Assembly: GCF_000365425.1 (NCBI RefSeq)
Contig: NZ_AQOV01000002.1
Location: 124,001-188,000, forward strand
DNA: 64,000 bases
Source of the DNA: Methylomonas sp. MK1
Lineage (GTDB): Bacteria > Pseudomonadota > Gammaproteobacteria > Methylococcales > Methylomonadaceae
Reading direction: 5' to 3'
Shown: positions 13,882 to 59,824 of the stretch, one piece after another
How the letters are laid out: each line of letters starts with the position of its first letter
Numbering within the stretch: position 1 is the stretch's first letter
Program-made: the position numbers and the translations under genes
Notes under the pieces: model-generated
Seen by the model: only the letters and a program-made list of their open reading frames with translations
The model's database searches: none
What the model was told of the DNA's origin: nothing

Positions 13882-13994
13882 AGACTATAAAAAACTTCGG
13901 TTTTTCTCGGCAATCCTCAGTAGTCAAAGTCTAGCAAGTTATTGTTTTTTATTGTTTATGTTTGTCGAGAGTTGCCGACGATTTTGATTAAAAC

Positions 13995-14045
13995 CGCACT
14001 CGTAACGCGAAGGTCGTAGGTTCGATTCCTATTGCCGGCACCATT
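13995..14045 (+). repeat. Attachment site, right
   Basis: 51-bp exact copy of the tRNA-Thr 3' part (5883-5933). It lacks acceptor 5' strand and D arm, so it is not a tRNA gene. The 240 bases after it (14046-14285) contain no gene and should carry the promoter of the desaturase. Confidence 0.93.
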
Positions 14046-26623: not shown

Positions 26624-29586
26624 GCGTTCCCCGCACCCGCGGGGATGAACCGCGCGGCATTGAGCGGTGCCGGGCTGAAATGAAGCGTTCCCCGCACCCG
26701 CGGGGATGAACCGCAAATCAGCGACGTGGCCGACAAGGCGTTGACGCGTTCCCCGCACCCGCGGGGATGAACCGGCGGCGTGCTGTCGTTTCCCAATGCG
26801 GTAGACGCGTTCCCCGCACCCGCGGGGATGAACCGGCCGACAACCGTGCTCAGGCAAAAAAGGCGGCGCGTTCCCCGCACCCGCGGGGATGAACCGACCG
26901 GAGTTTCTATCATCGCCGCACTGGTATAGCGTTCCCCGCACCCGCGGGGATGAACCGCCAACGGCGCCGTTGTTCCGGTTTCTAAATATGCGTTCCCCGC
27001 ACCCGCGGGGATGAACCGACATCACCGCCAACATCGTGTTGGATTTGTCCGCGTTCCCCGCACCCGCGGGGATGAACCGAAAATTCCGGCCATCGTACTG
27101 CAATGGGGCCGGCGTTCCCCGCACCCGCGGGGATGAACCGCCTTGGTCGGTGTACGTAGGTTGCCGTTCGGTGCGTTCCCCGCACCCGCGGGGATGAACC
27201 GTCACCGCCGATCCGCGTCTGTTTAACCGGGTAGCGTTCCCCGCACCCGCGGGGATGAACCGCGATTGGCCGGGCACAGATACGCCTGCTGGCGGCGTTC
27301 CCCGCACCCGCGGGGATGAACCGGTCAGGCCAAACGAAAAAAGCGATGCAGACAGGCGTTCCCCGCACCCGCGGGGATGAACCGCCAAATCATGAATCAC
27401 TTCATTTATCCCGTTAGCGTTCCCCGCACCCGCGGGGATGAACCAGTGACGGAAGGGGCGTTGACCGACGAAAACACGCGTTCCCCGCACCCGCGGGGAT
27501 GAACCGCCCGGGTTATCGGTGGCAATAGCCAGCGGTGCGCGTTCCCCGCACCCGCGGGGATGAACCCACAACAGCATAACAACCGCTGGTCTGCGCTAAG
27601 CGTTCCCCGCACCCGCGGGGATGAACCGGAAATTGGCTTAACTCAGGAACAAGCACAAAACGCGTTCCCCGCACCCGCGGGGATGAACCCACAACAGCAT
27701 AACAACCGCTGGTCTGCGCTAAGCGTTCCCCGCACCCGCGGGGATGAACCGGAAATTGGCTTAACTCAGGAACAAGCACAAAACGCGTTCCCCGCACCCG
27801 CGGGGATGAACCGGCGGATTGGTCGGTATTGGCCGGCCGTCGGGTGCGTTCCCCGCACCCGCGGGGATGAACCGCCCGCCGCGCTGACATTCTGACGCAT
27901 CCACGCGCGTTCCCCCCCGGGGTTACTAGGAACAATCCGGTAGCAGGTTCCACCCGCTGAGGACCATCGCATCCCATATTAGCGGTCCACCGCGATACGC
28001 GCAGAGCACCCTGGTGCCTCCGCGACCCGGGAAACGTTCGGATGCCCCTTGTGACGCGTCCACCCGCGTGAACCGAACTCGCGCCATGCACCATCGGCTC
28101 CCCACCCGCGGGGAACAGTGAAACATTATGTCAATAACCCCCATTGCGTTCCCCACCCGGGGATGACCGTGCGGCTGCATCAAGAATATTGCGATTGCGT
28201 TTCCCACCCGCGGGATAACCGCCATATCGGTTAACGATGCCGTGTTAATGCGTTCCCCACCCGCGGGGATGAACCGATGATAGCCACTCGCTAGGTCCGC
28301 CGGGCGTTCCCCGCACCCGGGGGATGACATCAAGATCTTTTTTGACACAAATTACGCGTTCGCACCCGCGGGGATGAACCACATCCGCAAGACCGCAAAG
28401 ACGCGTCCCCGCACCCGCGGGGATGAACCGCTTTATCGGGGCAGTCGGCAATCAGCTTTTCGAGCGTTCCCCGCACCCGCGGGGATGAACCGGTGGGCGC
28501 TCATTTAATTAGTATATAGCTATAGCGTTCCCCGCACCCGCGGGGATGAACCGGAACAGCGACACTTTAAGGACGAAAAAGGTAGGCGTTCCCCGCACCC
28601 GCGGGGATGAACCGTCAGGCGCAATCAATCGTTACAGATTGCTAGCGCGTTCCCCGCACCCGCGGGGATGAACCGACAAAGCAGACTCCCCGCGAGCAGC
28701 ATACCAAGCGTTCCCCGCACCCGCGGGGATGAACCGTTGGGGAAATGGTACCGATTGCTGCGTCTGCTGCGTTCCCCGCACCCGCGGGGATGAACCGGAA
28801 CCAGAGGAACCATGTCCGATGTCATACTTGCGTTCCCCGCACCCGCGGGGATGAACCGACCAACGAGTTCGCTATTATTATACTGGTGCCGCGTTCCCCG
28901 CACCCGCGGGGATGAACCGGACGGCCCCGCAATACTGCTTTGTGTAGGACTGCGTTCCCCGCACCCGCGGGGATGAACCGCTATGCGGTCAAACGCTGCG
29001 AGTGGCCACGGGGCGTTCCCCGCACCCGCGGGGATGAACCGACGAGAGTCAACCAAATACTTATTCACTATACGCGTTCCCCGCACCCGCGGGGATGAAC
29101 CGGAATGCAGTTCATATTGCCTGCCACCGGCTCGAGCGTTCCCCGCACCCGCGGGGATGAACCGATTGTTGATGAAATAAAACAAGAGCGAGGCAAGCGT
29201 TCCCCGCACCCGCGGGGATGAACCGGCTCCGGCAAATCATTGCGGAATACGCCTTAGGCGTTCCCCGCACCCGCGGGGATGAACCGTTAGCCGCTGACTC
29301 AGCGTTGCCAGCGTTGGTGCGTTCCCCGCACCCGCGGGGATGAACCGTCCTGCAAGGCTTCTTCCAGGAATGGCGTGATGCGTTCCCCGCACCCGCGGGG
29401 ATGAACCGAACAAAACGGTAAATGGTCGGTTCAGATCGACGCGTTCCCCGCACCCGCGGGGATGAACCGAATCCTATCGCCAGTGCGTTGAATGCCGAGC
29501 AGCGTTCCCCGCACCCGCGGGGATGAACCGCGCAGCATGTTGCGCCATACCCGGTTGAACAAGCGTTCCCCGCACCCGCGGGGATA
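26624..29586 (+). CRISPR. Type I-E CRISPR array
   Basis: The 29-base repeat reads GCGTTCCCCGCACCC then GCGGGGATGAACCG, a palindromic I-E repeat. There are 21 regular repeats from 26624 to 27874 and 20 from 28403 to 29586, spacing 61 bases with a few 62 (spacers of 32-33). Between them, 27907-28402 holds shortened, mutated repeats at spacings of 47-54 bases. The last repeat (29563) loses its 3' end (GGGGATAAATT). Two neighbouring spacers are duplicated at 27568-27661 and 27691-27784. Repeat-end variants occur at 27417, 27539 and 27662. Confidence 0.98.
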
Positions 29587-39293: not shown

Positions 39294-40385
39294 ATGGCGA
39301 GCATTGACAAAACGGCTGTCGAAAATTTACTTAAACACTTTATCGATCCAAATGTGGAAACCGATTTGGTGTCGGCAAAATCCGTTAAGAAAATCAGTGT
39401 GGATGGCAATGATGTCAGCGTCGTTATCGAGTTGGGTTATCCGGCTAAAAGTTATCTTGAAGAACTGAAGGCGGCGGTAACACAGCGTCTGCAAACTTTG
39501 CCTGGTGTGGGCAAACTAGATGTGTCGGTCAGTTTCAATATCCTTTCGCATTCGGTACAAAAAGCGTTAAAGCCTTTGCCGAATGTGAAAAATATTATTG
39601 CGGTGGCCTCCGGCAAGGGTGGGGTGGGCAAGTCCACTACTTCCGTGAATCTGGCTCTGGCCTTGGCGGCGGAAGGCGCCAATGTCGGTATTCTGGATGC
39701 CGATATTTACGGCCCCAGCATTCCGACCATGTTGGGCTTGTCCGGTAAGCCCGACAGTCCGGATGGCAAAAGCATGTTGCCGAAAATCTCGTTCGGCGTG
39801 CAGACCATTTCGATCGGTTATTTGATCGACCCTGACCAACCGATGATCTGGCGCGGGCCAATGGTTACCGGTGCTTTGCAGCAATTACTGAATCAAACCC
39901 AATGGCACGATGTGGATTACCTGATCATCGATTTGCCGCCCGGCACAGGTGATATTCAGCTGACGCTGGCGCAACAGATTCCGGTCAGCGGTGCGGTGAT
40001 TGTTACCACGCCACAGGATATTGCGCTAATCGATGCGCAACGCGGCTTGGGGATGTTCGAAAAGGTCAATGTGCCGATATTGGGGCTAGTGGAAAATATG
40101 AGTGTGCATATTTGCAGTAACTGCGGGCATGAAGAAGCGATTTTCGGCCAAGGCGGCGGCGTAGCGATGGCAATCAAGAATAAGCTGGATTTGTTGGGCT
40201 CTTTACCGCTGGATATTCAGATTCGCGAGTATGCCGATAGCGGCAGGCCTACAGTGGTGGCCGATCCGGATGGTCGGCCGGCGCAAATCTACAAAGCGAT
40301 TGCTCGGAAGATGGCCGCCAAGTTGGCGATGCGGGCGCGGGATTATAGCGGTCGGTTTCCAAATATTGTTATTCAGAATACCTGA
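39294..40385 (+). CDS. apbC: Mrp/ApbC Fe-S cluster carrier ATPase
   Basis: 363 aa from ATG 39294 (a TTG-type start further upstream gives an unlikely extension). An N-terminal MIP18/DUF59 domain (about 1-80) is followed by a P-loop NTPase with the deviant Walker A GKGGVGKST near residue 107 and CSNCG, the cluster-binding CxxC, near residue 280. It assembles or transfers Fe-S clusters. The last codons and stop form the left attachment site of element 2; the coding sequence remains complete. Confidence 0.95.
   Translation: MASIDKTAVENLLKHFIDPNVETDLVSAKSVKKISVDGNDVSVVIELGYPAKSYLEELKAAVTQRLQTLPGVGKLDVSVSFNILSHSVQKALKPLPNVKNIIAVASGKGGVGKSTTSVNLALALAAEGANVGILDADIYGPSIPTMLGLSGKPDSPDGKSMLPKISFGVQTISIGYLIDPDQPMIWRGPMVTGALQQLLNQTQWHDVDYLIIDLPPGTGDIQLTLAQQIPVSGAVIVTTPQDIALIDAQRGLGMFEKVNVPILGLVENMSVHICSNCGHEEAIFGQGGGVAMAIKNKLDLLGSLPLDIQIREYADSGRPTVVADPDGRPAQIYKAIARKMAAKLAMRARDYSGRFPNIVIQNT
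40360..40385 (+). repeat. Attachment site of element 2, left (end of apbC)
   Basis: 26 bp, CAAATATTGTTATTCAG then AATACCTGA, comprising the last codons and stop of apbC. The same 26 bp recur at 53094-53119; flanking bases differ. With an integrase 172 bases inside, this marks the insertion site. Confidence 0.88.
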
Positions 40386-40496
40386 TGGTGTTTCAGTGAA
40401 TCCCGGATAGGCTCTGGATGCCCGATTTTACAAGGGAATCATCGTTTTTTTATTCCCAGACAGTCCCACAAAAAACCATTAAATCCCGCTATAATG

Positions 40497-40533
40497 TCCC
40501 CTGTTTTGTCCCCTGGATGCATAAACAGGGGAC
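40497..40533 (+). repeat. Putative integrase arm sites of element 2, left
   Basis: TCCCCTGTTTTGTCCCCTG (40497-40515) plus an inverted AACAGGGGACA at 40523-40533. The 18-bp core recurs at 53035-53052 near the other end, as expected for arm-type sites. Confidence 0.55.
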
Positions 40534-40557
40534 AAGTATCACAAGCGCGGGGTGGAC

Positions 40558-41835
40558 ATGCTAACCGACACAGCAATAAAGAAATTAAAACCCGTAGGAA
40601 AGGACTATCAAAAAGCCGATGGCGAAGGTTTGGTATTGGTGGTGCGAGCCGCTGGCGAAAAGTCCTGGCGCTATGAATTCCGGCTTAATGGCAAAAAGCA
40701 GAAATACACTTACGGCAACTACCCGGAATTCAGCCTGGATGATGCACGATCAATTAACAGGGTGGCGCGCAAGCTGGTTGAACAAGGGCGACACCCATCA
40801 ACGATGCTCGATGACCCGGTTACCAAAAAACAAATCATTGATGGTGCCAGCTTTAAAGAGCTGGAGGCGTCACTAGCAGAACGGCAACAGCAGGCGGCGT
40901 TAGCCAGTATTCCAACCTTCGGCCAATTAGCCGAGCTTTACTGGCAAGAGGTAGAACGAACCTGGAAGAATCCAGAGAAGCAGTTCAGCTTAGCTAGGCG
41001 GCACCTGCTTCCTAAGCTGGGGCATATACGCATAAACGAAATTGATGTTGCTATGGTTCGTGAGCTGATCTATGACATACGGGAGAGAATCGGCACACCT
41101 ACCGCCCACGTTGCCAGGGATTGGGCTAATCGAATCTTTGACTATGGTGTTGAACACAATCTATGCGCCAGCAACCCGGCAAGCTTGGTAAGGGCAAAAC
41201 GGGTAGGGGACAAAGTGAAGCGAAAGCGTTGGCTAAAAAGCTCAGAAATTCGGCGCTATTTAACAGACGCATATCGGCTAAATAGCTACCGAGGGCATAA
41301 GCTTGGCCTTCATCTTCTAATGATTACCGGTGTCCGTATCGGGGAACTGGTCGGTGCCAAGTGGAACGAAATCGATTTAGAGCAGGCGGAGTGGTTGATA
41401 CGTTCTGACCGGATGAAAGCCGAAAATGATCATTACGTACCGTTGCCAGCCCAAGCCGTTAGTATGTTTCAGGAGCTTAAGCAGTTGAGCGCAGATGATG
41501 AATTTGTTTTTCCATCTGATAGAACCTCAACCGGGCATATTCAAAAAGAAACGCTGCGCTACTTTCATCAGCAGGTGTGCGCGTCGGCAAACATAGCGGA
41601 TTATCTGCCGCATGACCACCGGCACACCATATCGACGCATTTAAGAGAGCGCGGTTTTAATCCCGAGATTGTAGAAACCACCTTGGCGCATAAACTGCCG
41701 GGTGTTGCTGGTGTGTATTCCCATGCTCAGTACCGCGAACAACGCCGAGCCATGTTACAGGATTGGGCGGATTATCTGGATAGCCTTGTCACTGAGCAAG
41801 TTGTGGTTCAGGCCAATTTTAGGCAAGCGGTATAA
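40558..41835 (+). CDS. int: P4-type tyrosine integrase of element 2
   Basis: 425 aa from ATG 40558. An N-terminal DUF4102-type arm-binding domain (LTDTAIKKLKP, YGNYPEFSLDDAR) is followed by a core-binding domain and a catalytic domain. The catalytic Arg is in TGVRIGELVGAKW, His/Arg in HDHRHTISTHLRERG, and His and Tyr in TLAHKLPGVAGVYSH. It lies next to the left repeat and should recombine the apbC 3' end. Confidence 0.94.
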   Translation: MLTDTAIKKLKPVGKDYQKADGEGLVLVVRAAGEKSWRYEFRLNGKKQKYTYGNYPEFSLDDARSINRVARKLVEQGRHPSTMLDDPVTKKQIIDGASFKELEASLAERQQQAALASIPTFGQLAELYWQEVERTWKNPEKQFSLARRHLLPKLGHIRINEIDVAMVRELIYDIRERIGTPTAHVARDWANRIFDYGVEHNLCASNPASLVRAKRVGDKVKRKRWLKSSEIRRYLTDAYRLNSYRGHKLGLHLLMITGVRIGELVGAKWNEIDLEQAEWLIRSDRMKAENDHYVPLPAQAVSMFQELKQLSADDEFVFPSDRTSTGHIQKETLRYFHQQVCASANIADYLPHDHRHTISTHLRERGFNPEIVETTLAHKLPGVAGVYSHAQYREQRRAMLQDWADYLDSLVTEQVVVQANFRQAV

Positions 41836-42218
41836 CAGAATTTAACCGGATAGCTCGACGGGGCAACAAACGGGATTCGCCCCCCGTTTCCGGTTAATCC
41901 TTTCGGACGACTGACACTTTGGCGGGGTGTTGACGAAACAAGTACAAGCATTAATTAAACATCGTTCAAAAAATACTTGCTATCTTTTAAATGCCACGAT
42001 AACATTTGCACCATCTGGGATTGCTAGGGAGTTTGTGAGCCTTCTTTCCAGAGTTTATGTTTTTTAGGGCCAGCTATTGGCGACCCTGATTCAACACCTG
42101 ACCAATCGGCCAGGCAGTGCATAAGCAAATTTGGTTTTATTAACTTAATTCGCTTTGTCGTGCTTGGTACATTGCTGTCTATCGCAAGGCAAAGCAATCT
42201 TCATTATGGAGTTTGCTC
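41836..42218. other. Intergenic region, probable early promoter region
   Basis: 383 bases with no gene seen. Locally AT-rich (AATTAAACATCGTTCAAAAA near 41950). Its position before the AlpA-like gene suggests the promoter for the replication module; no specific box is claimed. Confidence 0.4.
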
Positions 42219-42521
42219 ATGCAAAAAATACAACATTCTCATACTGGTGGACAGACCAGTCTAAACGCCAATGCAATTCTGCGTCGTAAAGTCGTTTCTG
42301 GCTTGACCGGCAAGAGCCGCTCGACACTCTATCGTGATATTTCAAAAGGACTATTTCCTCATTCGATTGAAATTGGGGGAGGGTGCGTCGGTTGGCCTTG
42401 TTATGAGGTCGAGCAAATCAACAATGCCCGCATTTCAGGTAAATCAGACGATGAAATAAAACAATTGGTTGTCGAGCTGGAAGCCGCAAGAAAGCAATCA
42501 AACGCCGACTTAGCAGCATAA
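42219..42521 (+). CDS. AlpA-family regulator
   Basis: 100 aa from ATG 42219 (TATGGAG upstream). The central AlpA-type helix-turn-helix is VSGLTGKSRSTLYRDISKGL followed by FPHSIEIGGGCVGW. A charged C-terminal helix follows. In satellites AlpA proteins switch on excision or early genes. It is first of the plus-strand replication operon. Confidence 0.85.
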   Translation: MQKIQHSHTGGQTSLNANAILRRKVVSGLTGKSRSTLYRDISKGLFPHSIEIGGGCVGWPCYEVEQINNARISGKSDDEIKQLVVELEAARKQSNADLAA

Positions 42522-42863: not shown

Positions 42864-43266
42864 TCAATCAAAAATACCGCCATTCGGCAAAGCCTTGCTG
42901 GATCGTCAACGCTTCAATAATCCGCCGTTTCTGGTGGCTGTCTGCGTCGGCGGCGATGCATGGAACCACGCCAAACAATGGAATCGGCGCGGCGTTAATG
43001 TCGGCTTGGTGTTACCGCCCGATACCTCGCCCAAGTCGCTCAATTGGCCGGTTAAAGGCTGTCTATGTGTGATTGAGTGGGGAACCGGTCCCGCCGTGCC
43101 GTTAATTGTTGAGTTGGCTAAATGCCTACTGATGGCTGGCGCCGAGTCCGTCACAGTTCGCCCGTTGTGGGTGGATTTCAGTCAGCCTAACCTGGAATGG
43201 CCGGCAGATCAGGAACGCATCCGCACATACTACGCGCCACGGAAGGAGTTAGCCCATGTTGCCTGA
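42856..43266 (+). CDS. Hypothetical protein of the replication module
   Basis: 136 aa from ATG 42856, preceded by the strong site AGGAGGT. The longer frame with an extra three codons lacks such a site. Alpha/beta composition (FLVAVCVGGDAWNHAKQW), with no membrane segment. Not recognised. It overlaps the RepA-like gene by eleven bases and so is tightly coupled to replication. Confidence 0.65.
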   Translation: MPNQSKIPPFGKALLDRQRFNNPPFLVAVCVGGDAWNHAKQWNRRGVNVGLVLPPDTSPKSLNWPVKGCLCVIEWGTGPAVPLIVELAKCLLMAGAESVTVRPLWVDFSQPNLEWPADQERIRTYYAPRKELAHVA

Positions 43267-44425
43267 GAATATCGAATTCGATCCGCCAGAACACAAGCCT
43301 GCCCCGTTTCCGTTTATATCGGCCCGTGAGTTGACCTTAAAGCCGATTCGGATTGATTGGCTGCTGGAAGGTTTCCTGGAGCGTGAAAGCCTGAATCTGC
43401 TGTTTGGTGAGCCTGGCGCGGGTAAGTCGCTATTTGCCTTGGATTGGGCCTTCTGTATTGCGACGGGTCGTGATTGGCATGGCTACAACACTAAGCAGGC
43501 TGATGTTGTGATTGTCGCCGGCGAGGGTTTTGCTGGACTGTCACGAAGAGTTAAGGCGCTAGAGCAAAAATACAAAATGCTGGCGCCGGAATCGCTGCAT
43601 ATCAGTCAACGCCCCGCGCAACTGATGGACGAGAAGAACGCGCAATGGGTAGCCGATAGCATCAATAGTCTTTGTGCCAATCCCGGCTTAATCATTATCG
43701 ATACGCTGCACCGCAACATCGAAGGCGACGAGAACAGCAGCCAGGACATAGCCAAGTTCATAAGCAACCTGGACAACTATCTAAAGCCTTTGGGTGCGGC
43801 GGTACTGATCGTGCATCACTCAGGCCACGGACAAAAAGACCGCAGCCGAGGAAGTAGTTCTATCAGGGCGGCAATGGATGGCGAATTCTCAGCCACCAAG
43901 GGCGAAGGCGGCATTGTGCTTAGTTGCCACAAGGCTAAGGATTTTGAGGCCTTCACGCCGCTGCAATTCAGTCTAAAACCTACCGACTTGGATTGGCTCG
44001 ACGATGACGGCGAACCGATGACCAGCGTCTATTTGGAGCATGTCGGCGAGGCTAAGCCCATCCCCAAAAAGCGCAAATTATCCGCCCGCGATGATGCCAT
44101 TTTGACCGCTTTAACTGAGGCAATTGATAAGCATGGCATCGTACCTTCGTCAGAAATAAAGGAGAAATTCGGCGGCTTTTCTGGTTCTGGTGTTGATAGT
44201 CGAAAGGTAGTCAATATCGATCACTGGCGGGAACAGGCATACAAGGCAATTGTGGTTGATGCCAATACAGATGACGCACGCCGCATGGCTTTCAAACGAT
44301 GTCGGGATAAGCTTTTTGACCAAGGGTTTACCGTCGAATATGACGGATATGCATGGCCAATTTTTGACCGACCGAACAACGAACAGAACCGAACAAAAAC
44401 GAACAACCATTCGGGCGGAGCATGA
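43256..44425 (+). CDS. RepA-like AAA ATPase/helicase
   Basis: 389 aa of the RecA-like hexameric RepA/AAA_25 group. Walker A is GEPGAGKSLFALDWA (about residues 50-64), Walker B LIIIDTLHRNIEGDENSS (about 146-163), and sensor region VLIVHHSGHGQKDRSRGSSS (about 185-204). The C-terminal region varies and probably holds a winged helix. Expected to be the replicative helicase of the element. Confidence 0.87.
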   Translation: MLPENIEFDPPEHKPAPFPFISARELTLKPIRIDWLLEGFLERESLNLLFGEPGAGKSLFALDWAFCIATGRDWHGYNTKQADVVIVAGEGFAGLSRRVKALEQKYKMLAPESLHISQRPAQLMDEKNAQWVADSINSLCANPGLIIIDTLHRNIEGDENSSQDIAKFISNLDNYLKPLGAAVLIVHHSGHGQKDRSRGSSSIRAAMDGEFSATKGEGGIVLSCHKAKDFEAFTPLQFSLKPTDLDWLDDDGEPMTSVYLEHVGEAKPIPKKRKLSARDDAILTALTEAIDKHGIVPSSEIKEKFGGFSGSGVDSRKVVNIDHWREQAYKAIVVDANTDDARRMAFKRCRDKLFDQGFTVEYDGYAWPIFDRPNNEQNRTKTNNHSGGA

Positions 44426-44552
44426 ACTTTTTAGCGAACGAACACGAACACACTTCTATAAGAAGTGTTCGGTGTTCGCAAAATCTGTTCGCCCTCTCAG
44501 TTCAGTTAAAAACAGAATTTAAATGCCGGCAACCGGCAAGGGATTAAACCCA

Positions 44553-45908
44553 ATGAAAGCAACCTTATCCGATAAAACTTATTTAACCGACCTGGACGGC
44601 TTCCAAGCAATGGAAATCGAAAAGGCGCTTACTTATATCAATCCGAAGTATCAGGAAGCCTTAAAACAAGGTCGTTCGGTGCGTGGCATTGATAAACACA
44701 TCCAGCTATTCGAACGCACCAGCAACGGTCTATCGATTCCACGCGGCATATTTTTGGCGTCATTGGGCATGGTGGCGGAAGTAATCCAGGATGATAGACA
44801 GAGCCACCCGGTAATGATCGAAACCATTATCGAGCCGAGACACTATCAGGAGCGTGCCTTAAAACTGGCGGTTACTGTTGGCGGCGGCGTGCTTGTCGCC
44901 CCGACCGGCGCGGGCAAGACCACCATGGGCATTGAGTTGGCGGCAAGGCTTGCTCAGCGCTGTTTGATCCTGGTCAAGTCCAAAGACCTTGCCGAACAAT
45001 GGATAGGCGCTATTAAGCGATTTACTGGCCTGGAGTGCGGCATTATTGGCGGCGGCAAGTGGATCGAAGGCAAACAGTTCACCGTCGCCTTGGTGCAGTC
45101 TCTGCACAAACACGAAACCAGCTTGGATTATGGCTTAGTGATCGTTGATGAGTGCCACAACGTACCAGCCACACAGGCTTACACCGTCATTAACCGGCAG
45201 CGGGCACAATACCGATTTGGCTTATCTGCCACGCCACAGCGGAGCGATAACCTGGAAATGATGATACATGCCGCCCTTGGTCCTGTCGTTGCTGAAATCG
45301 AGCAAAGCGAGGTTGTCGGCGCGGTGTTGCCGGTCACGGTGTCGACGTTGAATTACGCCTTCCAAGGTAATCCGAAAAGCTGGACGGATTTTATCGCCAA
45401 GCTGGCAGACGATCCCGAGCGCAACCGGCTAATCGTAAACAGCGCTATCAAGTCGAGCCGGTCACTGGGTACGGCGGTTTTAACCGGTACCATCGAACAC
45501 GCGGAAAAGCTCCACGCCCTGATTGCACAGCATGGCGTCGATGCTTTGCTGTTGCATGGGCAATTACCCAAGAAAATCCGCGATGAGCGCATGAAGGCGG
45601 CGCACGGTAGCCAATTGATCATCGGCACGCTGTCGTTATTGTCGGAGGGTATCGACTGGCCGCATGTTGGCTCGATCATTTTCGCCAGTCCGGTATCTGC
45701 GGCGGTGAACAAGGAAACGCCGTCAGCCATCCGCTTGATTCAATCTATCGGCAGGGCCAGACGCCCATTCCCCGGCAAATCGGTGGCGCATGTCATGGAT
45801 ATTATCGACGCCACGCCTTTCGGCAGAGGTGCCTACCGCAAACGCGCGCTGATCTACCGTCAACAGGGTTTTAATGTGCGGGCATTAAATCAGGGAGGCC
45901 GGGCATGA
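44553..45908 (+). CDS. DEAD/DEAH-box helicase of phage type
   Basis: 451 aa from ATG 44553 (GCAAGGGATTAAACCC upstream; ATG 44523 would add ten residues). SF2 helicase: Walker A LVAPTGAGKTTMG near residue 119, DECH box VIVDECHNVP near 200, SAT motif FGLSATPQR near 220, and motif VI SIGRARRP near 405. An N-terminal extension of about 100 residues precedes the helicase. Probably a repair or replication helicase of the element. Confidence 0.87.
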   Translation: MKATLSDKTYLTDLDGFQAMEIEKALTYINPKYQEALKQGRSVRGIDKHIQLFERTSNGLSIPRGIFLASLGMVAEVIQDDRQSHPVMIETIIEPRHYQERALKLAVTVGGGVLVAPTGAGKTTMGIELAARLAQRCLILVKSKDLAEQWIGAIKRFTGLECGIIGGGKWIEGKQFTVALVQSLHKHETSLDYGLVIVDECHNVPATQAYTVINRQRAQYRFGLSATPQRSDNLEMMIHAALGPVVAEIEQSEVVGAVLPVTVSTLNYAFQGNPKSWTDFIAKLADDPERNRLIVNSAIKSSRSLGTAVLTGTIEHAEKLHALIAQHGVDALLLHGQLPKKIRDERMKAAHGSQLIIGTLSLLSEGIDWPHVGSIIFASPVSAAVNKETPSAIRLIQSIGRARRPFPGKSVAHVMDIIDATPFGRGAYRKRALIYRQQGFNVRALNQGGRA

Positions 45909-46357
45909 TTAACAGCAGAGCCAAAGGCAGCGCCGCCGAAAGAGAGTTTGCCGGTTTGGTCTATGACTGGTCCGGTGTGCGGTTGATTCGAAACCTGGAG
46001 CAAACCCGTTCGGGCGGTCACGATCTTATCGTTCATCCTGATGAAGTGGGTCCGGTCGCCGATGCTTTCCGCGCATTGGCCATCGAGTGCAAACGCTATC
46101 AATCGGTCACTGAGGCTAACATTCAAAAATGGTGGAATCAGGCAATTGCCCAGGCTAAGCCAGCCGAGTTGATGCCCATCCTAGCCTATCGCGCCAATCG
46201 CGCACCCTGGCGCGTTGTCTTGCCCTTGCGGGCGGTTAATCAAGCCCTGAGCCACAGTCAGCAGCTTGGTTATTGCGTCACGCTCAGCCCTGAGGGCTTT
46301 TGTCATGTCATGACAGAGGCTGTTCTGAACCAGGGGGTAAAATCACATGACAGATAA
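45905..46357 (+). CDS. PD-(D/E)XK nuclease, Holliday-junction-resolvase-like
   Basis: 150 aa. The nuclease core is visible: Glu in GSAAEREFAGLV, Asp in SGGHDLIVHP and the ExK in LAIECKRYQS. The N-terminal layout resembles phage Holliday junction resolvases. It overlaps the helicase by four bases, fitting a recombination/replication module. Confidence 0.75.
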   Translation: MINSRAKGSAAEREFAGLVYDWSGVRLIRNLEQTRSGGHDLIVHPDEVGPVADAFRALAIECKRYQSVTEANIQKWWNQAIAQAKPAELMPILAYRANRAPWRVVLPLRAVNQALSHSQQLGYCVTLSPEGFCHVMTEAVLNQGVKSHDR

Positions 46358-46719: not shown

Positions 46720-47121
46720 ATGCCTCGCCGAAAATTTCAACCAGGGCAAAGCGGTAATCCAAGTGGCAGGCCGAAGGGTAAAACAGCGGCCACTTTGCTC
46801 AGAAAATCGATAGCCGATGCAATGCCGGAAATATTGGAAAAGTTGGTCGCTTTGGCAAAAGACGGTGATATTGCTGCGGCAAAAGCCTTGCTAGACAGAG
46901 CGGTACCACCTTTAAAGCCCGTGGCGGCTAATGTAAGTCTTTCCGTCCCCAATGAAGCCAGCTTGACCGAGCAAGGCGCTGCTGTCGTTAACGCCATCTT
47001 AACGGGATCAATTCCGCCAGATATTGGTGGCCAGCTGATAGCCGCCCTGTCCAACCAAGCCAAATTGATCGAGGTGGACGAATTAATTAAACGCATTGAG
47101 GAACTGGAGAAAAAGCAATGA
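46720..47121 (+). CDS. DUF5681-domain protein
   Basis: 133 aa. The N-terminus FQPGQSGNPSGRPKGKTAATLL is a DUF5681 signature (two adjoining pieces: FQPGQSGNPSGRPKG and KTAATLL). Such genes often lie next to phage terminase genes, but no terminase is present here. The C-terminal third ends in a short coiled coil (ELIKRIEELEKKQ). It overlaps the next small gene by four bases. Confidence 0.8.
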   Translation: MPRRKFQPGQSGNPSGRPKGKTAATLLRKSIADAMPEILEKLVALAKDGDIAAAKALLDRAVPPLKPVAANVSLSVPNEASLTEQGAAVVNAILTGSIPPDIGGQLIAALSNQAKLIEVDELIKRIEELEKKQ

Positions 47122-50048: not shown

Positions 50049-50319
50049 AGGATGACTGAACTTTTTATCAATTAAATAACACTAGAATCGTTACAAAATA
50101 TTGCAACCAGCAACAAAGCAAAGTGGGTTTATAGATAACATGGAATTAGCGCAAGTTTCAAACCAAACTCTATTGGTAGTCAAGCGAGCTTCGATTCTAC
50201 CCTGTGCCGGCGAGGTTTTGCACGGAATTGGATAGAGCTTCACCATCACATAAAATCTGATTGACAGGGCAAAGCAACTAAGTGCAGAATCTAGCCGTTG
50301 GCCACATTGCCGACCGGGA

Positions 50320-50341
50320 TTTGCAGCCCGTTTTGAAGTGG
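50320..50341 (+). promoter_or_regulatory. C4 target boxes, upstream pair
   Basis: TTTGCAG (50320-50326) and GAAGTGG (50335-50341) are each complementary to segments in the loop of the C4-like RNA (CTGCAAA and CCACTTC). The same two boxes recur in the same order before the 234-aa gene. In phage P1 such paired sites lie on both sides of the C4 RNA. Confidence 0.65.
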
Positions 50342-50351
50342 CGAGAAAAGC

Positions 50352-50374
50352 GCCGCAGCTTATGCGGCTTTTTT
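50352..50374 (+). terminator. Rho-independent terminator upstream of C4-like RNA
   Basis: Stem GCCGCA/TGCGGC with loop GCTTA and a T6 run, located just after the upstream target boxes. It could terminate the leader transcript or isolate the locus. Confidence 0.75.
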
Positions 50375-50416
50375 GTGCCTGTCATTTAGCATGGCTTTTG
50401 CTGTGCGTTCATTATG

Positions 50417-50485
50417 ACGTGGTTATTTGGGCGGCTTCGGCCGGCCGCACCACTTCGCGGTACTGCAAACCCACTTAACCACGTC
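50417..50485 (+). ncRNA. C4-type antisense RNA
   Basis: A closing 10-bp stem GACGTGGTTA (50417-50426) / TAACCACGTC (50476-50485) encloses a GCGGCTTCGGCCG hairpin region. Segment a is CCACTTC (50450-50456) and segment b is TACTGCAAAC (50461-50470). Segment b is exactly complementary over ten bases to 50494-50503, and segment a over seven to 50526-50532, which reaches the GGAG ribosome site of the downstream gene. Matching boxes also lie upstream at 50320-50341. This reproduces the layout of the P1/P7 C4 antisense RNA (and P4 CI RNA). Ends are approximate. Confidence 0.78.
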
Positions 50486-50493
50486 GCCTGATA

Positions 50494-50534
50494 GTTTGCA
50501 GTATCGGCGGCGGTTTAATCATTCAGAAGTGGAG
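50494..50534 (+). promoter_or_regulatory. C4 target boxes over the ribosome binding site
   Basis: GTTTGCAGTA (50494-50503) and GAAGTGG (50526-50532) pair with C4 segments b and a; the second overlaps the GGAG ribosome site (50531-50534) nine bases before ATG 50543. Pairing would block translation of the 234-aa gene. Confidence 0.7.
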
Positions 50535-50542
50535 TAACCGCA

Positions 50543-51247
50543 ATGACAACAGAATCAACAGCTCAAGCCGAGCAAAGCCCCAATTTTAGCCACCGATTCA
50601 ACCCTGAAGATGGTTTAGCCATTGATGCTTTCGACAACATATCGTCGCAAGCTATAAGCACACTTATGCTGCTTTCTGGTCAATTTGAAATGGATAACGA
50701 AACCGTTATTAATGACCATGACGTGGTTAATATTATTTATGGGGTTATAAACAGTATCAAAGATATGGGTGCTATTTACCGAAACGACTATAAGCACCAA
50801 TTCAATGCAAATCGTGTAAAAACTGGTGTGGACTGCGAGCCAAAACGCACGATTCGCAGCCGTGATGATTTGTCATTTACCAAACGTGATCATGAAGGGC
50901 GAATGTTAAATTGGTTTATGCCCGATAGAAACGGAAATTATCACGAACACTACGGCATTGGTGAAATTTGGTTTAACGAAATCGTAGACCTGGCGCGACA
51001 CAACACCCAAGATGCTTATGACGCGATGAAATTCGCTGGCCCTGAATTAACGCGTTATTGGAACAACGGCCATTCTGAAGGCTTTTTTGACAGGATGTCA
51101 CGTTGGGCGCTTGCGGGAATAATATCAAATCCCGATGAGCCAATAGTCCCGTTCAAGTTCTGCAAGATGGGAAAACCACCGGTTGAAGGAATGGATAATC
51201 TAATAAGTCGTGCAATTGGCTCTGGCACGAAGGACGGTGCAGCATGA
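50543..51247 (+). CDS. C4-controlled protein of unknown function
   Basis: 234 aa, soluble, no signal peptide or clear DNA-binding motif seen. It begins MTTESTAQAEQSPNFSHRF and has a helical N-terminal half; a middle segment is rich in aromatic and charged residues (RMLNWFMPDRNGNYHEHYG). Position behind a C4-type antisense RNA makes it the functional counterpart of P1 icd/ant: an antirepressor or cell-affecting switch protein. That role is inference. It overlaps a 36-codon frame by four bases. Confidence 0.75.
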   Translation: MTTESTAQAEQSPNFSHRFNPEDGLAIDAFDNISSQAISTLMLLSGQFEMDNETVINDHDVVNIIYGVINSIKDMGAIYRNDYKHQFNANRVKTGVDCEPKRTIRSRDDLSFTKRDHEGRMLNWFMPDRNGNYHEHYGIGEIWFNEIVDLARHNTQDAYDAMKFAGPELTRYWNNGHSEGFFDRMSRWALAGIISNPDEPIVPFKFCKMGKPPVEGMDNLISRAIGSGTKDGAA

Positions 51248-51435: not shown

Positions 51436-51795
51436 TTAAGCATAGCCAACGAGCCGGTGCGCCTCCTGGTACTGGCTTTTTTTGCCCAAATCAAAACCAT
51501 CACCACCAGCACAAGGAATGGTCGACATAGATCTTTTCCCCGCCGACACAGGTGAAACAGCCGCCTTTTGGTCCTTGGTGGTAATCCCCGTCGTAGCCGG
51601 TGATACTCCAGTCTGGCAGGTCTTTCGCTCCCATTTGTCCTTGGCTTTTCCAGCCGTCACCGTTTGCCATTGCATATTACTGGGATCGTCGGCACCGCCA
51701 CGCACCAACGGCCTGATATGATCGATTACACAACCTGGACACGCGCGGGTGTTCAGCTGTTGCGCCGAACTGAAATAGTGGTGTGTGCTATTTTA
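51436..51795 (-). pseudogene. HNH-endonuclease relic
   Basis: The frame on the minus strand from 51795 reads CPGCVIDHIRPLVRGGADD then PSNMQWQTV and KAKDKWERK, the core of small exported HNH nucleases. It has no start codon, and no signal peptide upstream where the Fic gene begins. After WERK the frame becomes unlike protein, whereas another phase reads on (SITGYDGDYH, CFTCVGGEK), so a frameshift is likely. Judged inactive. Confidence 0.55.
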
Positions 51796-51857
51796 GTTTT
51801 TGCGTAAAATCTAAAATATCGAGTAAGGTTGTTTTAGTTTCCGGGAAAAGCAAGGCC

Positions 51858-52982
51858 ATGAAAAATTTTAAGGCTGGTCAAATCGTCCAGCAAACACATT
51901 ATAAAAGCTTCCAGCCAAATACCATTAATCGTGCTTGGGTGTTGGATAACATGGAGTTGATTCAATTGCTGGGGCAGGCGGATCGTGAGCTGGGTAGGCT
52001 GGATATGTATTCGGACTACATCCCTAATATTGATTTATTCATTCGCATGCATGTACTGAAGGAGTCAACTCAATCCAGCAAGATCGAGGGCACGCAGACC
52101 AATATGGAGGAGGCGTTGCTTGAGCAAGAAGATGTTGCACTGGATAAGCGGGATGATTGGGAAGAGGTGCAAAACTATGTGGCTGCGATGAATGAGGCGA
52201 TTGCGAATTTGCAGACTCTCCCCTTTTCAGCTCGCTTAATCCGTGAGACTCATAAAACTTTGATGCAGAGCGTACGCGGCAAGCACAAGCAGCCGGGCGA
52301 GTTTCGGCTAAGCCAGAATTGGATTGGCGGGGCAACGCTGAGCGATGCGGTGTTTGTGCCGCCAGTGCATACGTCCATCAGTGAGCTAATCGGCGATATT
52401 GAACTGTTTGTGCATAACGATGTTCAGTATTTCCCCGAGTTGCTTAAAATTGCCCTGGTGCATTACCAGTTCGAAACCATTCACCCTTTTTTGGACGGCA
52501 ATGGCCGAGTCGGAAGGTTGCTGATTACGCTGTATCTTGTGAGCAAGGGGATATTGAAGAAACCGGTGTTGTATCTGTCGGATTTTTTCGAACGCAATCG
52601 CTCGCTTTATTACGACAATCTAATGCGGGTAAGGGAAAAAAACGACTTGCTGCAATGGTTCAAGTTTTTTCTGGTTGGCGTTATCGAAACCGCACAAAAC
52701 AGCATTACCGCTTTTGACAATATTCTGAAGCTGCAAAAGATTGTGGATAGCCAAGTACAGACCTTGGGCAGCAGAGCTGTCAATGCACAAAAAGTGATTC
52801 ACTACTTGTACCAGCGTCCGATGATCGATGCTTCCAAGGTCGGCGAAGTGGCAGAAATATCCGCAGCTTCGGCGTACAAACTGATTGCTGATTTAGAGCA
52901 GTTTGGCATATTGAAAGAAATCACCGGCGGCAAACGCGGCAAAATGTATCTGTTTGATGACTACTTGCAGCTGTTCAGATAA
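51858..52982 (+). CDS. Fic-domain protein, class II
   Basis: 374 aa from ATG 51858 (GTG 51783 would add 25 unconserved residues). Fic AMP-transferase motif HPFLDGNGRVGRLL near residue 205. The N-terminal inhibitory helix SSKIEG fits the (S/T)xxxE(G/N) motif and marks class II Fic, kept inactive until the helix is released. A C-terminal winged-helix-like part (about 310-370) completes the usual architecture. Element cargo; possible toxin, regulator or anti-phage effector. Confidence 0.9.
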   Translation: MKNFKAGQIVQQTHYKSFQPNTINRAWVLDNMELIQLLGQADRELGRLDMYSDYIPNIDLFIRMHVLKESTQSSKIEGTQTNMEEALLEQEDVALDKRDDWEEVQNYVAAMNEAIANLQTLPFSARLIRETHKTLMQSVRGKHKQPGEFRLSQNWIGGATLSDAVFVPPVHTSISELIGDIELFVHNDVQYFPELLKIALVHYQFETIHPFLDGNGRVGRLLITLYLVSKGILKKPVLYLSDFFERNRSLYYDNLMRVREKNDLLQWFKFFLVGVIETAQNSITAFDNILKLQKIVDSQVQTLGSRAVNAQKVIHYLYQRPMIDASKVGEVAEISAASAYKLIADLEQFGILKEITGGKRGKMYLFDDYLQLFR

Positions 52983-53034
52983 CGATAGGTTTAACCGGGA
53001 AAAAAGGTAAAGAGAAGAAATCCTGAACTAATGC

Positions 53035-53052
53035 CCCCTGTTTTGTCCCCTG
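53035..53052 (+). repeat. Putative integrase arm sites of element 2, right
   Basis: CCCCTGTTTTGTCCCCTG, identical to the core of 40497-40515, located 42 bases before the right attachment repeat. Confidence 0.55.
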
Positions 53053-53093
53053 TTTTTTGTTTTAAGTCCTTAAAGCCTTGTAAATAAAGGCAT

Positions 53094-53119
53094 CAAATAT
53101 TGTTATTCAGAATACCTGA
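53094..53119 (+). repeat. Attachment site of element 2, right
   Basis: Exact 26-bp copy of the apbC 3' end (40360-40385). Beyond it chromosomal sequence resumes with the end of proB. Confidence 0.88.
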
Positions 53120-57617: not shown

Positions 57618-57817
57618 GTTTTCTCCTGGTTTTTTCCGTACGTTGATTGCTGTGGCTGCATAGGTTCTGGCTTAGAGGCGAAGCCTTATGATAGCAAGAG
57701 TGTTGGGAGTGATTGATCGGCTTATAAAACCCATTGTTTTATAAGCTTTTTGCGCCTTGGGAGCTTGGCGTCGCGCTTGCAATTGGCTCGATTATCATTT
57801 AACTTAGCAAGTCACCT

Positions 57818-59824
<2,007 letters not shown>

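Follow-up and report, generated by a model that had tools for sequence, protein, structure and literature searches.

In phage P1, a plasmid prophage, target boxes are found both before and after the C4 antisense RNA, and the icd/ant layout includes a translationally coupled leader open reading frame. The two-loop mechanism of the P1/P7 C4 RNA is established (PMC5320573) and its target is described as an antirepressor (PMC8546580). The P1/P7 C4 RNA (Rfam RF01695) resembles the locus described here in being a three-stem RNA with a' and b' loops whose b' side falls on a ribosome site. The antisense RNA CI of P4 likewise has targets on both sides (seqA and seqC), as at this locus; unlike the control proposed below, it works by terminating the transcription of replication genes (PMC4825925). 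Both C4 and c4-a1b1 were listed by Weinberg 2010 (PMC2864571), and IsrK and the C4 antisense stand together in an annotation table (PMC12189769). No paper joining a C4 antisense RNA with a satellite was found in a literature search outside most subscription journals, and in the journals beyond that search the link between IsrK and C4 may already have been published.

Among worked examples, the isrK-orf45-anrP region of prophage Gifsy-1 comes nearest to this locus. The Rfam models isrK, c4-a1b1 and C4 all match the same stretch (L021, 34131-34329) with 79.3, 48.1 and 69 bits respectively, which apparently puts the orf45 of Hershko-Shalev et al. 2016 (PMC4825925) on a C4 RNA; the main text of that paper does not use the terms "C4 antisense" or "C4 RNA", and it mentions a processed RNA (STnc1160) that is likened to P4 CI. 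With the published numbering mapped exactly, G28 and G31 belong to box a1, C159 and C162 to the a' loop of C4, and the two orf45 start codons to the 5' part of C4. The downstream a2 box has the same TTGGCGT.

The window analyzed here is a stretch of 64,000 nucleotides from Methylomonas sp. MK1, probably a methanotroph judging from three matches to the AMO/pMMO family PF02461 in its genome. The original prediction placed in this window a C4-type antisense RNA with two sets of target boxes, and the covariance model, the fold and the covariation of boxes and loops in homologous loci all support it (Table 1). The boxes TTTGCAG and GAAGTGG do stand in the same order on either side of the RNA, exactly where they had been reported, and the RNA holds the complements of both. 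The RNA itself is there, but the limits given for it (50417-50485) are better drawn at 50410-50491. The second box set does reach the ribosome site of the 234-aa gene, with b2 overlapping a Shine-Dalgarno-like GGAG that lies 8 nt 5' of the ATG at 50543. The Rfam C4 model, proposed as a check, gave 49.5 bits (threshold 45) on a 2 kb input; C4 was absent from the list of a whole-window Rfam scan with fast filters. Folding, also proposed, gave -37.2 kcal/mol for the C4 stretch (z -4.5; none of 200 shuffles was equally good); CCACTTC occupies the second hairpin's loop and TGCAAA the junction after it, as in C4. The sequence and structure hallmarks of C4 are found together, namely a closing stem plus two hairpins (in the fold and in the covariation of 13 loci), a' and b' loops that have their complements in the target boxes, and, in the sequence, a b2 box overlapping the ribosome site of the controlled gene. 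A C4-type mechanism is very likely at this locus, which counts as a new and well-supported instance of a known, P1-phage-style kind of switch. Unlike P1, the window has no translationally coupled leader frame, encodes a different protein and carries the system in an integrative island. A leader frame coupled to the 234-aa gene was considered and dropped, as the frame that starts at an ATG within C4 meets its stop after 25 codons (50489-50491), 51 nt 5' of the gene.

Table 1. Features of the C4 locus and of the surrounding island (window coordinates)
Feature	Position	Strand	Basis and remarks
Box a1, TTTGCAG	50320-50326	+	Exact match
Box b1, GAAGTGG	50335-50341	+	Exact match
C4 antisense RNA	50410-50491	+	Rfam RF01695, 49.5 bits; fold; stem covariation in 13 loci
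C4 loop b', ACCACTTC	50449-50456	+	Fold and cross-locus pairing; CCACTTC = 50450-50456
C4 junction a', TACTGCAAAC	50461-50470	+	Exact match, fold, cross-locus pairing
Box a2	50494-50506	+	13-nt complement of a' and neighbors (50458-50470), one G-U; TTTGCAG = 50495-50501
Box b2, GAAGTGG	50526-50532	+	Overlaps Shine-Dalgarno-like GGAG, 50531-50534
Sigma-70-like promoter, TTGACA-18-CAGAAT	50261-50290	+	Consensus scan, 10/12; predicted
IsrK-like short RNA	50297-50374	+	Sub-threshold Rfam match; two hairpins, a1 in hairpin loop, b1, terminator
Intrinsic terminator, GCCGCAGCTTATGCGGC then T run	50352-50374	+	Predicted; between first boxes and C4
234-aa antirepressor-like protein	50543-51247	+	N-domain ~1-97 (two-helix hairpin), C-domain ~100-225
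att repeat, left	40360-40385	+	Perfect 26-bp direct repeat; end of mrp
att repeat, right	53094-53119	+	Perfect 26-bp direct repeat
Tyrosine integrase of island	40552-41835	+	Pfam
int-alpA RNA	41843-41909		Rfam; 5' of AlpA-type gene
AlpA-type regulator	42213-42521	+	Pfam; behind int-alpA RNA
Replication-type module (AAA_25 ATPase, helicase, PDDEXK nuclease)	43256-46357	+	Pfam, PHROGs
DUF5681 protein	46720-47121	+	Pfam
Fic-family protein	51783-52982	+	NCBIfam, 166.6 bits (model cut-off 550); inside att sites

Short boxes of this kind could be chance repeats, and the upstream ordered pair arose in 75 of 20000 dinucleotide-shuffled flanks, a figure that is weak alone; the downstream pair arose in 3 of 20000. 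In a sliding control along both strands of the window, which took every 7th position and did not sample C4 in register, box pairs occurred in both flanks at 11 of 18086 positions, all of them in or at a CRISPR-like array (26629-29507). This array has 40 exact copies of the repeat core with a period of 61-62 nt. The decisive support for the boxes being real comes from covariation across loci. With loops taken from the predicted fold, all 13 C4 loci compared have a complement of a' of at least 7 nt both up- and downstream at near-fixed offsets, and the mean pairing of the loci with their own boxes exceeded random re-pairing for each of the four box sets (p ~5e-5, the limit of the 20000 permutations used). 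When the RNAs were swapped among these loci, the own C4 was best or tied for b1 and b2 in 8/13 each, for a1 in 9/13 and for a2 in 10/13; the expected position of b1 gave no match in L002 and L010, and that of b2 gave none in L011.

The larger set comprised 42 loci (12 of the earlier ones and 30 found in relatives with a model of our own, R1), reduced to 41 by dropping L067, whose upstream side is cut by a contig end. Duplicate places (L005, the same as L042; L017, the same as L002; L018, the same as L009) and two loci that do not have C4 (L006 and L009, with sRNA-Xcc1) were left out. Boxes and C4 loops change together in these 41 loci, as the original prediction had asked of homologues: for none of the four box sets did any of 20,000 re-pairings match the mean of the own pairs, a figure that does not count independent events because the loci are related. 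The boxes lie outside the C4 model by which the loci were found. Their positions are also constant, b2 being located 28-38 nt 3' of C4 in 39/41 loci and a2 0-6 nt 3' in 34/41; C4 is misfolded in six of the seven loci where a2 was missed, the exception being L064. The automatic fold misplaced the a' loop in L048, L051, L054, L055, L056 and L065 and made the b' loop of L011 too short, and all were counted unchanged.

A way to see this at close range is to compare L046 and L061, two congeners with similar leaders. From 150 nt 5' to 60 nt 3' of C4 they differ in 29 of 294 aligned columns, and 18 of these differences fall in the 48 loop and box columns against 11 in the other 246. There are three differences each in a1, b1, b', a', a2 and b2, made in concert so that each locus retains its own pairing; the b boxes of L046 are the same as those of the window and its a set is different. 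Taken with the 41 loci, this refutes the reading as chance repeats, whose probability is practically negligible. The covariation indicates that specificity evolves as six short boxes and loops change in a coordinated way. The stems also covary, with two-sided changes in 22/28 pairs of the 13 sequences and 93.6% of cells paired (36.6-43.1% with the partners slid), which is weaker evidence than the box test because the sequences were picked by a structural model.

The first box set lies on a stretch that is IsrK-like in layout, and the last base of the predicted promoter falls 7 nt 5' of the start of the match. Its score with the isrK model (RF01394) is 32.8 bits, under the threshold of 50, so that the likeness is one of layout and not of membership; c4-a1b1 (RF03163) reaches 15.5 bits at 50284-50334, also below its threshold (46.7). 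Folded alone, the stretch adopts a different lowest-energy structure (z -1.6). Gifsy-1 has the same order of elements: a promoter, a short terminated RNA with a1 and b1, then C4, a2 and b2 and an antirepressor gene. It differs from the window in that its isrK is above the Rfam threshold, and in the overlap of orf45 with anrP (PMC4825925).

The observed sequence, fold and loop/box covariation allow a mechanism to be proposed in which transcription, processing, the direction of control, decoy action and antirepressor activity would be as follows. One promoter would drive the leader, and part of the transcripts would stop at the terminator, giving a short IsrK-like RNA with a1 and b1; read-through transcripts would carry C4 and the 234-aa gene. 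C4 would fold and then be trimmed out (in P1 by RNase P), a step that we infer here. Its a' and b' loops could pair with a2 and b2 and cover the ribosome site in front of the antirepressor-like gene; the protein would thereby be kept off in the quiet, integrated state. Pairing of C4 with a1 and b1 would probably strengthen repression on the long transcript, and the short RNA could soak up C4, releasing the gene. The protein made would inactivate a repressor belonging either to the element or to a helper phage. As a whole, this explanation (silencing of an antirepressor-like gene by C4 pairing at two box sets, with release by a short decoy RNA) is in our opinion quite probable.

The mutants published for Gifsy-1 bear on it directly. 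Basal lacZ was 4 in the wild type, 93 and 218 with a1 changed, 484 and 926 with the a' of C4 changed, and 224 and 327 with both changed (PMC4825925). Hershko-Shalev et al. explained them by a preferred model in which the leader refolds in cis, a1 pairing with the C4 region, and the short RNA opens it, a separate C4 not being needed. Native gels in vitro, besides the mutants, speak for this model in Gifsy-1 (PMC4825925), and the same complementarity is present at the window locus. Yet it leaves without a role the a2 and b2 boxes, whose covariation with the loops extends over 41 loci; the double mutants that restore the cis helix are still 56- and 82-fold above wild type, and a separate processed RNA, STnc1160, was detected (PMC4825925). 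We consider cis refolding improbable as the account of this locus. In our own reading the lacZ values fit two needed sites, since the double mutants re-pair a1 and not a2, and they can be arranged as a two-site table: both paired, 4; a1 broken, 93/218; a2 broken, 224/327; both broken, 484/926.

These figures also touch a reading in which the locus works mainly like P4 CI, C4 pairing with a1 and b1 to end transcription early and translation control at b2 being secondary. Changing a1 alone in Gifsy-1 raises expression 23- and 55-fold, and the likening of STnc1160 to CI comes from the same paper (PMC4825925); a terminator follows the first box set and the element is satellite-like. Pure termination, however, needs no b2 box near the start codon, where it is held 28-38 nt after C4 in 39/41 loci, and restoring a1 alone in Gifsy-1 does not restore repression (224 and 327 vs 4; PMC4825925). 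Control mainly of the CI kind is rather unlikely in our view, and it can hold together with silencing at two box sets, the two not being mutually exclusive. Another published result argues against a simple decoy, since the isrK-driven growth arrest became stronger instead of weaker when orf45 RNA was co-expressed (PMC4825925). According to the methods of that paper the orf45 construct begins at the second ATG; if this was the one used, its C4 would by our mapping lack the first 16 nt together with part of the closing stem. As to decay, in which the boxes would survive at a locus no longer expressed, the C4 score is only modestly above threshold, but the boxes, loops, ribosome site, promoter-like site, terminator and 234-codon frame are all intact, making a decayed remnant very improbable.

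The original prediction took the 234-aa gene to be of unknown function and to represent a new kind of C4-governed switch. Neither statement is supported in that form, because the C-terminal half belongs to a family that is otherwise joined to Bro-N, Rha, KilA-N or AntA domains and is often found behind C4; the claim is reduced to a known kind of switch with an unusual protein. The protein has no sequence relative in Pfam, PHROG, NCBIfam or PDB, and Pfam shows neither a Bro-N, KilA-N, Rha or AntA N-terminal domain nor an antirepressor DNA-binding domain. A single-sequence scan of genome and viral contigs gave nothing, and tblastn against phage and plasmid records gave no match. A large-database search recovered 31 proteins, 27 of them with a precomputed Bro-N, Rha or KilA-N domain, and the 19 of these that were aligned share residues ~100-225 of the window protein (RDDLSFTKRD ... 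HEHYGIGEIWF ... GFFDRMARWA). This RDDLSFTKRD...HEHYGIGE domain, carried at the C terminus by a subset of antirepressors, is thus present in the 234-aa protein, and in L010 and L020 it is joined to AntA. A profile search matched 720 proteins (120 listed) with a profile that includes Bro-N; among the matches listed, those further down cover Bro-N alone and fall outside the C-domain family. The profile scan found 11 loci in genome contigs and four in viral contigs.

A C4 above the Rfam threshold precedes the C-domain gene in L002/L017, L005, L010, L011, L012 (two copies), L013, L014, L019 and L020, with one to three small open frames in between in L013, L014, L005 and L019. In L006 and L009 (L018 was taken as the same locus as L009) sRNA-Xcc1 stands before the gene, and model R1 finds no C4 there. 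Neither RNA precedes it in L007, L008, L015 and L016, and these four together with L003 have no C4 by Rfam or by R1. Directly 5' of the Bro-N gene of L007 and L008 there is an apparent truncated C4/sRNA-Xcc1-like RNA that runs into its own b box.

The N-terminal part (residues ~1-97), an unusual domain, matches small stand-alone proteins in L003 (2.7e-5) and L004 (2.3e-4), the latter with three small N-domain-like proteins in tandem, the third more divergent. In L046, L061, L040 and L065 the first gene after C4 encodes a small protein similar to these and 18-24% identical to the N-part of the window protein; the small gene of L046 has an apparent frame shift with respect to that of L061. With an N-part like this small first gene and a C-domain like that of antirepressors, the 234-aa protein looks, from its sequence, like a fusion of the two. 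The same N/C fusion is found in another protein (P0002; 51% over 95%). The link of the N-domain rests on the L003 and L004 matches, the alignment and P0002; hhalign of the N-domain family against alignment A1 was weak (probability 10.8), and alignment A3 was discarded because it had set N-domain proteins wrongly against the C-domain. In the AlphaFold model (pTM 0.52) the N-part consists of two helices and the C-part is mostly helical, with blocks of residues 101-220 at pLDDT 82-95; no fold match to the model was found in PDB or BFVD at E 0.001.

Model R1, whose training set includes the window sequence, matched C4 in 50 of the 121 genomes searched (own included), from 23 of 44 genera. In the own genome it found the window copy and no second one among the 150 of 1590 candidates scored; a genome search with the Rfam C4 model missed even the window copy. 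To look at what lies behind C4, one open frame was scanned with Pfam in each of 20 of the 30 fetched loci, and 11 of the 20 had no Pfam family. Bro-N was found in L045 and L055, Rha in L050, and KilA-N in L059 and, at a distance of 221 nt, L053. The gene directly behind C4 encodes RadC in L052 and L063 and AlpA in L044; in L066 a RadC gene comes second. Given the spacing in L052, L063 and L044 (b2 at 34-36 nt and the start codon at 52-53 nt after C4), control of genes beyond classical antirepressors does seem to occur in relatives.

In one Delftia and one Amantichitinum locus the place of C4 is taken by sRNA-Xcc1 (RF02221; L009 5476-5563, 84.1 bits, and L006 5407-5494, 80.1 bits). A 7-mer in the same register, in a predicted loop (CTAGTTG or CCTATGA), has complements in both flanks, the downstream one adjoining the ribosome site of a Bro-N gene. 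This RNA differs from C4 in its predicted fold, and Rfam lists no clan; it looks like a C4 analogue. In a wider reading, C4, IsrK/a1b1 and probably sRNA-Xcc1 would be one widespread three-part switch (terminated decoy, antisense RNA and target gene) that requires both box sets. In methanotroph-related islands this switch would have gone beyond antirepressors to direct control of RadC, AlpA and small helical proteins, with loops and boxes swapped as a unit in the manner of immunity specificities. We give this reading an even chance; the published IsrK-orf45 mutants are already a test of it. What the window contributes is a clean instance of C4, found in a small integrative element and together with an unusual fused antirepressor-like protein. 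Of greater weight is the comparison, which ties Gifsy-1 IsrK/orf45, P1 C4 and perhaps sRNA-Xcc1 to one mechanism, connecting several RNAs whose descriptions had been separate, and gives the first box set a testable role.

The island that carries the locus spans 12.7 kb between the 26-bp att repeats at the end of mrp. Its flank was matched in 35 of 37 genomes (own included), and the empty site is continuous in all seven fetched loci of other congeners (370/426 to 418/427 identical). The placement of the switch in a satellite thus holds as far as an integrative element is concerned (att repeats and empty sites), but life as a satellite, that is helper dependence, is only inferred. Integrase, att sites and replication genes are all present, and none of the 10 island proteins scanned, several of them without a family, matched a head, tail or large-terminase PHROG; the case for a satellite-like element is fair. 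The Fic-family protein is likely cargo. Repeats of TGTCCCCTG near both element ends (40481-40515 and 53018-53064) are perhaps integrase arm sites. Contig C1 of the same genome has two Phage_capsid loci (L032 and L033), possible helper prophages. The L080 region of a congener combines the same replication module (58-68% identical) with a C4 RNA; behind the latter stand small proteins, an AlpA-like gene (43% to that of the window) and a gene that we read from its translation as Bro-N-like. Just 5' of this C4 (10402-11354) translations show DUF5681-like and small-terminase-like proteins.

Two other features of the window were recorded. A weak Rfam tRNA match (13974-14040, 30.2 bits with a threshold of 29) is absent from the ARAGORN list. 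An ordinary TPP riboswitch (57816-57923, 69 bits) precedes a 632-aa gene at 57926, which we take to be probably thiC.
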